Part shown: positions 28,574-41,247 of the stretch, piece by piece
Numbering within the stretch: position 1 is the stretch's first letter
Layout: each line of letters opens with the position of its first letter
Origin: Bacteroidota bacterium
Lineage (GTDB): Bacteria; Bacteroidota; Bacteroidia; Bacteroidales; FEN-979
DNA length: 64,000 nt
NCBI GenBank assembly: GCA_026391355.1
Contig: JAPLDH010000008.1
Coordinates: forward strand, 1 to 64,000
Reading direction: 5' to 3'
Translations under genes and position numbers: made by a program
The notes under the pieces: model-generated
What the model was told of the DNA's origin: nothing
The model's database searches: none
What the model saw: the letters and a program-made list of their open reading frames with translations, nothing else

Positions 28574-29464
28574 ATGGCCGGATTAAAGGAAGTCAGGGTT
28601 CGTATTGCATCTGTAAAGACCACTTTACAGATCACCAGCGCAATGAAAATGATGGCTGCGGCTAAATTAAGGAAAGCACAAACTGCAATCGTTAAATTGC
28701 GTCCATATGCACTGAAACTAAATGATATTCTAAGGAATTTAAGCTCCAGCATTGAGGATTCAAATGAAAATCTTTATGTAAAACAGCGTCAACCGGAAAA
28801 GATATTACTTGTCGTCATCGCTTCCAACCGTGGATTGTGCGGGAGTTTTAATTCCAATGTTATCCGAACAACCACTTCCCTGATTGCACATGACTATACT
28901 GCTCAATCCCGGAAAAACAATGTAAGCCTGATCACAATTGGCAGGAAAGCATCAGATCATTTCCGCAAACGCAATTACAATGTTGTTGAAAACCGTGATG
29001 ATCTTTTTGATAACCTTACCTATGAGAATGTTGCATTGCTTGCAGAGAAAATCATGATGTCTTTCCTCAACAAGGAGTATGACCGGGTTTACATTATTTA
29101 CAATCAATTTAAGAATGCGGCCGTTCAGACCCTGACGGTAGAGCAGTACTTGCCCATTATGCCAGTGAATTCAAAACAGGAATCAATCAACAATGATGCT
29201 TTATCGAATTATATTTTTGAACCGGATAAAGAAACAATCATCCGGGAACTGATCCCGAAATCCTTGCGCATCAAGTTATTTAAAGCGCTTCTTGATTCAT
29301 TTGCTTCAGAGCAGGGGGCACGTATGACTGCAATGCAGAATGCCTCCGTAAACGCACAGGACATGATTCGCGATCTTCAGCTTTCCTATAACAAAGCCCG
29401 GCAGGCAGCCATCACCAAGGAACTTCTTGAAATTGTAAGTGGTGCTGAAGCGTTAAAGGGCTAA
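28574..29464 (+). CDS. atpG: F-type ATP synthase subunit gamma
   Basis: A 296-aa central stalk subunit. The N-terminal helix is LKEVRVRIASVKTTLQITSA followed by MKMMAAAKLRKAQ. The Rossmann part includes SNRGLCGSFNSNV, and the C-terminal helix is MTAMQNASVNAQDMIRDLQL then YNKARQAAITKELLEI. It ends the atp cluster and overlaps the convergent DUF3109 gene by 4 bp. Confidence 0.96.
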   Translation: MAGLKEVRVRIASVKTTLQITSAMKMMAAAKLRKAQTAIVKLRPYALKLNDILRNLSSSIEDSNENLYVKQRQPEKILLVVIASNRGLCGSFNSNVIRTTTSLIAHDYTAQSRKNNVSLITIGRKASDHFRKRNYNVVENRDDLFDNLTYENVALLAEKIMMSFLNKEYDRVYIIYNQFKNAAVQTLTVEQYLPIMPVNSKQESINNDALSNYIFEPDKETIIRELIPKSLRIKLFKALLDSFASEQGARMTAMQNASVNAQDMIRDLQLSYNKARQAAITKELLEIVSGAEALKG

Positions 29465-30015
29465 TAAAGAAGTGTGAGCAACTTATTATACCAGTTTCTG
29501 CCATATTTCCGAATCAATGAATCCCCTGCAAACTGGTAAAGTGCAATTTTTTGCTTACTTCCATTCTCCAGTGCATTCTTGCAGATCGGCCATTTGTGAT
29601 AATTTACTGCATCGTTTTCACCGATTTTGTTAATCCGGATCGGGTACAAATGACAGGAAACCGGCTTTTGGAAAGTGATTTTCTTTTCCGAATAAGCTTT
29701 TTCAATGGCACACCGCGCAATGCCGTTATCAAAATAAACATAGGCACATTCCCTTCCTTGAACCAATGGCGTAACGAACTTTCCTTCAGCATCATAATCA
29801 AATACACCCAAGTTTTCTACCTCGGCGATCCCTTCCCGTCTCATGAAGGGCTTTATATCGTCGATGTGGTCTTCGAGCAAAGAGATTTCCTCTTCCTCCA
29901 AAGGCGCCCCTGCATCTCCTTCAATGCAACAGGCCCCTTTGCACTTGTCAAGGTCACAGCAGAAGGAAACATCCCGAATGTCGTCGGAAATAATGGTGTT
30001 GCCATTAAGAATCAT
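29461..30015 (-). CDS. DUF3109 family cysteine-rich protein
   Basis: A 184-aa protein with a conserved cysteine set: FCCDLDKCKGACCIEGDAGA near the start, then RECAYVYF, RCAIEKAY, SCHLYPIRI and PICKNAL. This matches DUF3109 (YkgJ-like CxxxCxxCC proteins), proposed to bind zinc or an iron-sulfur cluster. The frame can be extended 28 codons upstream, but that part is translated from a short-word array (HSYIPIFLHFYI), so the Met at 30015 is chosen. Confidence 0.85.
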   Translation of the reverse strand: MILNGNTIISDDIRDVSFCCDLDKCKGACCIEGDAGAPLEEEEISLLEDHIDDIKPFMRREGIAEVENLGVFDYDAEGKFVTPLVQGRECAYVYFDNGIARCAIEKAYSEKKITFQKPVSCHLYPIRINKIGENDAVNYHKWPICKNALENGSKQKIALYQFAGDSLIRKYGRNWYNKLLTLLY

Positions 30016-30036: not shown

Positions 30037-30096
30037 AATGTAGAAATGTAGGAATATAGGAATATAGGAATGTAGGAAAATAGAAATGAAGGAATG
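30037..30096. repeat. Tandem word array (GTAGGAAT), left of the four-helix-bundle gene
   Basis: Units AATGTAG, AAATGTAGG, AATATAGG, AATATAGG, AATGTAGG, AAAATAG, AAATGAAGG; period about 8 bp. Its first 19 bases (30037-30055) are the exact reverse complement of 30535-30553, so the four-helix-bundle gene lies between inverted arrays. Confidence 0.85.
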
Positions 30097-30169
30097 CAAA
30101 CAATTAAAATATTATGATAAAATGTGTGACCTTTTTAATGTATAACCGATTAAGGAAAAAATACAGGAG

Positions 30170-30535
30170 ATGAAGACAAACATTATTAAAGAGAAGAGTT
30201 TTGACTTTTCAGCAGAGGTTGTGTTCCTCTATCAATATCTTGTAAAGGAAAGACACGAATACATTTTATCAAAACAACTGATCAGGTCGGGGACTTCCGT
30301 CGGAGCTAATACCGCTGAAGGTCTTGGTGGACAAAGCCCTAAAGACTTTTGTCATTGTCTCAATGTGGCTTATAAAGAAGCACGGGAATCATTCTACTGG
30401 ATTTCGCTTCTCAAGAAAACAAACTATTTGAATGCTGAAAAAGCAGATCCGGTGCTGTTAAAATGTGATGAGATCATCAGGATCCTATGCTCGATCCTGA
30501 AAACCACAAATGAAAGGTATAATCTTTCAAAATAA
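30170..30535 (+). CDS. Four helix bundle protein (S23/IVP/bAvd-like)
   Basis: A 121-aa protein of the four-helix-bundle family related to proteins encoded in 23S rRNA intervening sequences and to the Avd accessory proteins of diversity-generating retroelements. The core is LIRSGTSVGANTAEGLGGQS, PKDFCHCLNVAYKEARESFY and a C-terminal helix with LKCDEIIRILCSILK. The family is thought to bind nucleic acid through a basic pentamer; members found alone have no known role. It sits alone between the atp/DUF3109 and nuo regions. Its stop codon (533-535 of this kilobase) touches the right inverted word array. No reverse transcriptase is nearby. Confidence 0.88.
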   Translation: MKTNIIKEKSFDFSAEVVFLYQYLVKERHEYILSKQLIRSGTSVGANTAEGLGGQSPKDFCHCLNVAYKEARESFYWISLLKKTNYLNAEKADPVLLKCDEIIRILCSILKTTNERYNLSK

Positions 30536-30564
30536 TTCCTACATTTCTACATTTCTACATTTTT
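30535..30564. repeat. Tandem word array, right of the four-helix-bundle gene (inverted copy)
   Basis: ATTCCTAC, ATTTCTAC, ATTTCTAC, ATTTTT. The first 19 bases are the exact reverse complement of 30037-30055. It begins in the last base of the stop codon. Confidence 0.85.
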
Positions 30565-30696: not shown

Positions 30697-31047
30697 ATGA
30701 GTGCTGAAAGCTTGATTCTGTTCTTCATTGTCGGCGCATTCCTTGTCGGGATCGCCATCTTGTTCTCCAGTTACATTCCACCGAAATCGACAAATCCCCA
30801 GAAATCGGAAACCTATGAATGTGGTATTCCCACAGAGGGGATCACCTGGCTCCAGTTCAATGTTGGTTACTACCTTTTTGCCATTGTATTTCTGGTGTTT
30901 GACGTTGAAACTGTTTTCATATTTCCCTGGGCAAGGGTTATGAAAACAGCCGGTACAAAAGGTTTTGTGGAGATCATCATTTTCTTTTTCGTACTTGGTG
31001 CAGGTTTGTTGTACGCCTGGAAGAAAGGAGCATTGAAATGGGAATAA
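30697..31047 (+). CDS. nuoA: NADH-quinone oxidoreductase subunit A
   Basis: A 116-aa membrane subunit with three helices. The conserved loop [13 protein letters not shown] carries the Cys of the quinone-site loop, and [20 protein letters not shown] is the family's most conserved segment. It overlaps nuoB by 10 bp and starts the 11-gene complex I operon. Confidence 0.95.
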
Positions 31048-39158: not shown

Positions 39159-39205
39159 CTGCAAGGAATTGCAACTGGGAACTGTGAACTGCAAACTGAA
39201 AACTC
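39159..39205. repeat. Tandem word array (AACTG family) between nuoM and nuoN
   Basis: Words GCAACTGG, GAACTGT, GAACTGC, AAACTGA, AAACT; period 7. The same family lies in the opposite orientation at 41204-41247, on the far side of nuoN and two small genes, and again inside a flx gene at 63239-63269. Confidence 0.8.
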
Positions 39206-41203: not shown

Positions 41204-41247
41204 TGGTTTCCAGTTTGCAGTTCCCAGTTCGCAGTTCCCAGTTAAAT
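41204..41247. repeat. Tandem word array (AACTG family, inverted copy)
   Basis: Reads CAGTTTGCAGTTCCCAGTTC then GCAGTTCCCAGTT; on the minus strand this is the same word family as 39159-39205. Together they bracket nuoN and two small genes as an inverted pair. Confidence 0.8.

Follow-up and report, generated by a model that had tools for sequence, protein, structure and literature searches.

We propose, with a probability of roughly 60%, that a small four-helix-bundle gene unit in the genome of Bacteroidota bacterium GCA_026391355.1 is one copy of a widespread cassette that resembles the intervening sequences (IVSs) of rRNA, stands outside rRNA, has ends that template each other, spreads through recombination of the single-strand or transformation type instead of transposition, and encodes a ring protein that binds the short words of those ends. 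The findings suggest that a kind of mobile gene cassette with ends that copy each other has been overlooked. PF05635 proteins, which occur in rRNA intervening sequences, still lack an agreed function, and the catalogues of tandem heptamer arrays in bacterial intergenic DNA name no agent behind them. What is new is the link between PF05635 genes and short-word arrays across many phyla, together with empty sites with breakpoints, arms that evolve as one and a candidate expression context. Two old questions, the role of the IVP protein and the origin of short-word arrays, are thereby made testable.

A single gene between matched arms

The window, by which we mean the whole stretch of DNA analysed, comprises 64,000 nt of contig JAPLDH010000008.1 of this assembly (forward strand, positions 1-64,000). 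The parts of the unit and its neighbours are as follows.

29461-30015, minus strand: DUF3109 protein (PF11307), left neighbour, outside the unit
30037-30096, plus strand: left arm, about 7.5 tandem copies of the 8-bp word AATGTAGG
30037-30055, plus strand: left half of an exact 19-bp inverted repeat
30129-30153, plus strand: promoter-like motif ACCTTTT-N10-CCGATTAA, between the left arm and the ORF
30170-30535, plus strand: ORF of 121 aa, four-helix-bundle / 23S rRNA IVP family (PF05635, TIGR02436), with 2rld and 2gsc as the closest proteins of solved structure
30535-30562, plus strand: right arm, the inverted array, with about 3.5 copies of the word ATTTCTAC, beginning in the last base of the stop codon
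30535-30553, plus strand: right half of the exact 19-bp inverted repeat
30697-31047, plus strand: right neighbour, outside the unit, which we take to be nuoA, judging by its translation and because it leads a run of nuo-like genes

A first-pass annotation had described the unit as inverted arrays of one 8-bp word around a single four-helix-bundle gene, and this description is confirmed by the array consensus (the left word AATGTAGG and the right word ATTTCTAC are reverse complements, hence one word), by the ORF list (30170-30535 is the only ORF of at least 60 aa wholly between the arms) and by the profile matches (PF05635, E 3.6e-26; TIGR02436, E 2.8e-29). The exact 19-bp inverted match that it reported is real and extends to 27 bp at 93% (30037-30063 / 30535-30561), and it was right that the right array starts on the final base of the stop codon, TAA at 30533-30535. 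The promoter-like motif, the only one of its kind in the window, had been missed. An unbiased scan of 464 kb, made up of the window and 20 control stretches of the window's genome, returned only three comparably strong inverted pairs with a spacing of 150-2600 bp, the window unit being one. The right arm was considered as a terminator and rejected, having no special fold (z -0.58). Elsewhere in the window a second inverted word-array pair (39173-39203 / 41206-41236), 2.0 kb apart, encloses two ORFs, one for a 469-aa membrane-protein-like product, probably nuoN, and one for a product of 109 aa.

The unit contains a single ORF that matches PF05635 only, with no transposase and no Y1 HUH transposase domain, and no rRNA match was found at its site between DUF3109 and nuoA. 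No reverse transcriptase adjoins it; the three RVT_1 places of the window's genome (G000) lie on contigs C57 and C63, and the window on C36. The encoded protein matches the solved structures 2rld (E 1.3e-29) and 2gsc (XCC0516, E 8e-4), each of five chains, and the Xanthomonas protein is a toroidal homopentamer according to the available part of PMC4990558. As the first-pass annotation did, we infer a nucleic-acid role for the window protein, and possibly a part in movement.

Inverted arms are a property of the unit

The window's genome holds 17 homologues by protein search and 22 by TIGR02436, and the IVP family is present in 18 of the 21 genomes searched. Arms were called where upstream DNA matched the reverse complement of downstream DNA with a local score of at least 34, and flanks swapped between loci served as the null. 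The family set comprises 124 unique genes from the window's genome and its relatives, 120 of them usable; four short-flanked genes and two duplicates (L038, L056) were left out, and the decayed L054 was dropped, having given no match. Inverted arms bracket 87 of the 120 units, compared with 22 of 1440 in the swapped-flank null. Arms are absent or unclear in the other 33, many of which come from one vertical orthologue set of 14. Flanks match in direct orientation at 19 of the 120 units. These matches were considered as target duplications and rejected, many of the 18 inspected being self-palindromic arms; L072 looks like a partial tandem duplication of a unit, with a second partial match.

A wide set drawn from named genomes gave 80 loci, 78 of them with enough flank, and inverted arms were found at 62 of the 78 against 138 of 998 (14%) in the null, which is high because AATTACG-type words are common to many loci, so that the excess is smaller than it appears. 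The armed loci include members of the Bacteroidota, Ignavibacteria, KSB1, Verrucomicrobia, Planctomycetes and Victivallales, as well as Clostridia, Patescibacteria, Campylobacterota, a gammaproteobacterium and Nostoc. Low-arm loci of this set were considered as rRNA IVSs, a possibility that we set aside after finding an rRNA match at none of the 12 loci given. The first-pass annotation had regarded its proposal as endangered should most solitary homologues lack flanking arrays; since most are bracketed by inverted word arrays (87/120; 62/78), this is not the case. On a Planktothrix plasmid (L420), an IVP unit with long inverted arrays lies between DISARM drmD and an MmeI-type enzyme.

Solitary GxxExxY genes (PF13366 / TIGR04256; L208-L237) also carry inverted arms, at 19 of 27 loci compared with 44 of 702 in the null, and their arm words are mostly 9-10 bp (21 of 32). 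Of 30 such loci collected, 27 remain after the exclusion of L235 and of two, L237 and L230, that could not be located.

Word arrays are found elsewhere too. The window's genome has 73 in 464 kb, built from a shared word dictionary, and arrays also stand alone at the IVP sites of relatives and occur inside nuoL, as would be expected if slippage-prone arrays litter the genome and IVP genes happen to lie among them or insert into them. We consider such a passive origin unlikely. Insertion into an existing array would leave the same word direction on both sides, whereas the observed arrays are inverted; inverted arms were called at only 4 of 271 ordinary ORFs of at least 150 aa in the control stretches and at none of 24 ParE toxin genes; and the two arms of a unit co-vary at nuoJ-nuoK and in Nostoc (see below). 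Three IVP-less genomes hold few arrays (7 in 240 kb), though these genomes are distant, belonging to other families, and the samples are small. Array density runs in the expected direction with IVP copy number, a comparison to which the same distance and small samples apply. We conclude that the arms are a property of the unit and not general background.

Within coding sequence, nuoL of the window's genome carries an in-frame short-word array in a variable loop (L009, 2418-2471), nuoL of two relatives (L195, L197) carries longer array-like inserts, and arrays of CAGTTCC and GTCACGC lie in frame inside a MeaB-like GTPase gene (L013, 2129-2200).

The two arms of a unit change in step

The arm words of the family set are 7 bp long in 109 and 8 bp in 55 of 184 arms, with a median of 4.7 copies; in the wide set they are 7 bp long in 123 of 131 arms, with a median of 4.6. 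The word varies by locus yet matches between a unit's two arms, and the left and right periods agree in 65 of 69 loci. Changes of period number 13 when mapped on the protein tree, compared with a shuffle mean of 25.7 (minimum 20 of 300), and arm presence changes 18 times compared with 30.7; word period follows the IVP protein phylogeny. Arms tend, though no more than that, to have the G-rich strand of their word directed towards the gene (146 of 184 in the family set, 91 of 131 in the wide set).

Thirty loci at the nuoJ-nuoK junction comprise, by our reading, eight with a full-length IVP ORF, four with a broken or partial one, two with the same arms around other content (a GxxExxY-like gene with one stop in L197, no gene in L204) and 16 short gaps, some with solo arrays of other words or with remnants. 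A hairpin of CTTTGCG/GCAGAG words also lies within the arms of L197, which in relatives enclose an IVP gene. For 14 units at this junction, a unit's own arms match each other better (mean 54.6) than arms compared between genomes (40.8; permutation p 5e-5). On Nostoc plasmids the arms are AATTCGC arrays of 4+4 words in L421 and L423 and 3+3 in L424, and AATTCGT arrays of 4+4 in L425, and in L433, also from Nostoc, the same inserted stretch is present in both arms. The units of L421 and L424 differ by one substitution in 452 aligned bases, yet both of their arms differ by one word, a joint change not easily accounted for unless one arm is copied from the other. The two arms of a unit thus change in step. 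At a site between two tRNA genes in four genomes (L070, L083, L053, L090), an IVP gene has inverted GTGTGGG-type arms that differ between genomes and remain complementary.

Matched arrays could also arise under autoregulation, with the protein binding to them to control its own gene and selection, not mobility, keeping them alike. The closeness of the arms to the gene, a word period that follows the protein clade and a ring-shaped pentamer (the five-chain 2gsc and 2rld; the available part of PMC4990558) would suit autoregulation, which we nevertheless regard as improbable: it leaves the inversion, the identical insertion in both arms and the replacement insertion described below unexplained, and in the motif-bearing subfamily the promoter lies inside the arms.

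A further possibility is that the arms act in RNA, with the transcript folding into a long stem that RNase III cuts, as in 23S rRNA IVSs. The protein family and the layout are those of rRNA IVSs, and the Coxiella IVS has variable tandem heptamers just before its ORF, according to the available part of PMC4990558. However, mismatches between the arms of 88 pairs are not enriched in G-U relative to A-C (140 and 149; counted by locus, 33 and 21). In the subfamily of the window unit the promoter-like motif sits between the left arm and the ORF, so that a transcript starting from it would lack the left arm; that arm is placed upstream of the divergent DUF3109 gene, about 20 bp from its start; and the site has no rRNA match. 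We therefore give action through an RNA stem little credence and favour arms that template each other as DNA.

Gain by replacement, loss with remnants

The 124 units occupy 92 site clusters. The largest cluster (14 loci, including L071) is the IVP orthologue set mentioned above, mostly without arms, between genes whose translations we read as serA-like and DUF1015-like; this set has apparently been domesticated. The window's genome and its congener G001 have only two sites in common. Among the 124 Bacteroidota units no near-identical copies were found at different sites, the best non-syntenic pairs sharing 76-79% of their amino acids.

Of 30 nuoA loci, two have the unit beside DUF3109. L153 keeps the arms and the promoter-like motif with the ORF gone, L157 only the left arm and a motif-like stretch, and L151 has an unrelated hairpin of words; L155, L161 and L149 have an arm beside nuoA with another neighbour. 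L154 has the DUF3109-IVP block flipped with respect to nuoA, and both of its junctions carry word arrays, an arrangement in which arrays appear as rearrangement points. The window site in relatives thus displays loss, remnants and rearrangement, not gain; it is read as loss because the DUF3109 site is common to other genera and gene-less relatives keep arm remnants.

Gain is seen on Nostoc plasmids. L426, L427 and L432 have an intact DNA cytosine methyltransferase gene; in L421, L423 and L424 an internal 328-bp stretch of this gene has given way to the unit, which measures 466 bp in L421. At a second site, L425 has a 422-bp unit in place of the 188 bp found in L428 (and, at similar lengths, in L429 and L430), and the right flank of L425 is 99.7% identical to that of L428. 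The Nostoc arms lie at or within about 12 bases of the replacement breakpoints, and at the two homologous sites there is no target-site duplication, replacement being found instead. At the first site the unit is 98.0-99.8% identical among the three plasmids and the flanks 86.7-94.5%, as expected if the unit spread by recombination; identity rises near the unit, already in the last 200 bp of the left flank, so the spread could be ordinary recombination of a larger tract.

Cassettes therefore land in new sites by replacing resident DNA and are later lost, often leaving an arm. The earlier view of the unit as an insertion is supported for the class by the two Nostoc plasmid sites with gain; for the window copy, where relatives show loss, remnants and rearrangement, an insertion is no more than possible. 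Arrays at the same site without the gene, which had been named as an observation that would count against mobility, do exist as arm remnants in relatives, yet they have the look of decayed units.

A promoter-like motif shared with DNA-processing genes

The motif ACCTTTT-N8-10-CYGATTAA occurs 32 times in the window's genome and 12-36 times in each of five relatives, and its reversed form not once in these six genomes. It lies at most 250 bp upstream of 27 of 88 IVP genes, 8 of 29 GxxExxY genes and 4 of 17 Y1_Tnp genes in the six genomes, and upstream of none of 14 ParE and none of 13 RVT_1 genes; it is absent from most IVPs. Other genes behind it in the window's genome encode RadC, a RecJ-type DHH protein, topoisomerase I, a ComM-like Mg-chelatase and a ComEC-like Competence protein. 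In the relatives radC, topA, comM, comEC and ORF6N appear again (30 of the 108 places in the five relatives were examined, with labels from BLAST matches to proteins of the window's genome). Genes for secreted-protein-like and other products also lie behind the motif. From its sequence context, the motif may mark a competence or DNA-processing regulon of this Bacteroidota family, 'competence' being a gene-content label.

The motif also bears on whether the unit is a non-autonomous element moved in trans, either by a reverse transcriptase with an Avd-like partner or by a Y1 HUH transposase in the manner of REP/RAYT elements. Avd proteins share the four-helix fold, and Y1_Tnp genes are among those with the motif (4/17). 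RVT_1, however, went undetected in G008, G009, G011 and G012, which have 4-15 IVP genes each, and Y1_Tnp in G004, which has 16, in assemblies that are incomplete; and the Nostoc sites have no target duplication. Either enzyme as an obligatory helper was rejected, their presence across the 21 genomes giving it no support, and we judge mobilisation in trans to be very unlikely.

A model for the cassette

Based on these observations, we favour a cassette that moves without a transposase. Its layout would be a word-array arm, a promoter (in this subfamily), the four-helix-bundle ORF and the same array inverted. The cassette may have a single-stranded or fold-back stage, during which one arm serves as template for the other, and such templating would keep the arms matched while letting the words expand and drift. 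It would enter new sites by recombination, not transposition. Judging by its promoter-like motif, the Bacteroidota cassette may be expressed with DNA-uptake and recombination genes, and it probably spreads via transformation-like single-strand integration. The pentameric ring would bind the array with about one 7-8-nt word per subunit.

More tentatively, the IVP and GxxExxY units might together form a new class of transposase-free cassettes, a proposition that we think possible and would not yet bet on: a ring-protein gene with mutually templating word ends, a period set by the protein (7-8 bp for four-helix, 9-10 bp for GxxExxY), competence-type replacement insertion, and solo arrays as scars. 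If this were true, solo word arrays dispersed across many genomes would be scars of a new cassette class, among them the heptamer repeats known without explanation from cyanobacteria and Xanthomonas.

Comparison with known systems

A similar layout is found in the 23S rRNA IVSs of Coxiella, Leptospira and Salmonella, which, like the window unit, are bracketed by inverted repeats and are about 400-500 bp long; the IVSs of Coxiella and Leptospira contain an ORF of the same family. In contrast to them, units of the window type stand outside rRNA, in many copies per genome and with locus-specific arm words; they show no sign of RNA-level arm pairing, and one subfamily has its own promoter-like motif.

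In RAYT/REP (REPIN) systems a single gene is flanked by inverted short repeats and units are scattered through the genome. The window unit likewise has inverted flanks, with arrays of similar words dispersed in the genome. Unlike RAYT/REP, the IVP unit is without an HUH transposase domain, and its words are tandem, not palindromic, and locus-specific. Avd of diversity-generating retroelements has a four-helix-bundle fold and forms a pentamer, whereas no reverse transcriptase lies next to the window unit.

The heptamers GGGAATC of Xanthomonas and GGGGA(C/T)T of Nostoc form G-rich intergenic 7-bp arrays, with 70 inverted pairs in Xcc, and, unlike IVP arms, are tied to no encoded gene family in the available part of the report (PMC4692102). 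The accessible part of the paper on the TAACTGA repeat of Beggiatoaceae makes no mention of the IVP family (PMC4679880), and that of a study of Flavobacterium columnare describes a four-helix gene between guanylate kinase and nucleotide adenylyltransferase genes with no arrays mentioned (PMC5524665). We found no description of inverted arrays around solitary IVP genes in the literature covered, which lay outside preprints and most subscription journals.

The solitary GxxExxY genes, like IVP units, have inverted arms and can carry the promoter-like motif. They differ in their words, mostly of 9-10 bp compared with 7-8 bp, and in their protein, which is PD-(D/E)XK nuclease-like (PDDEXK_3).
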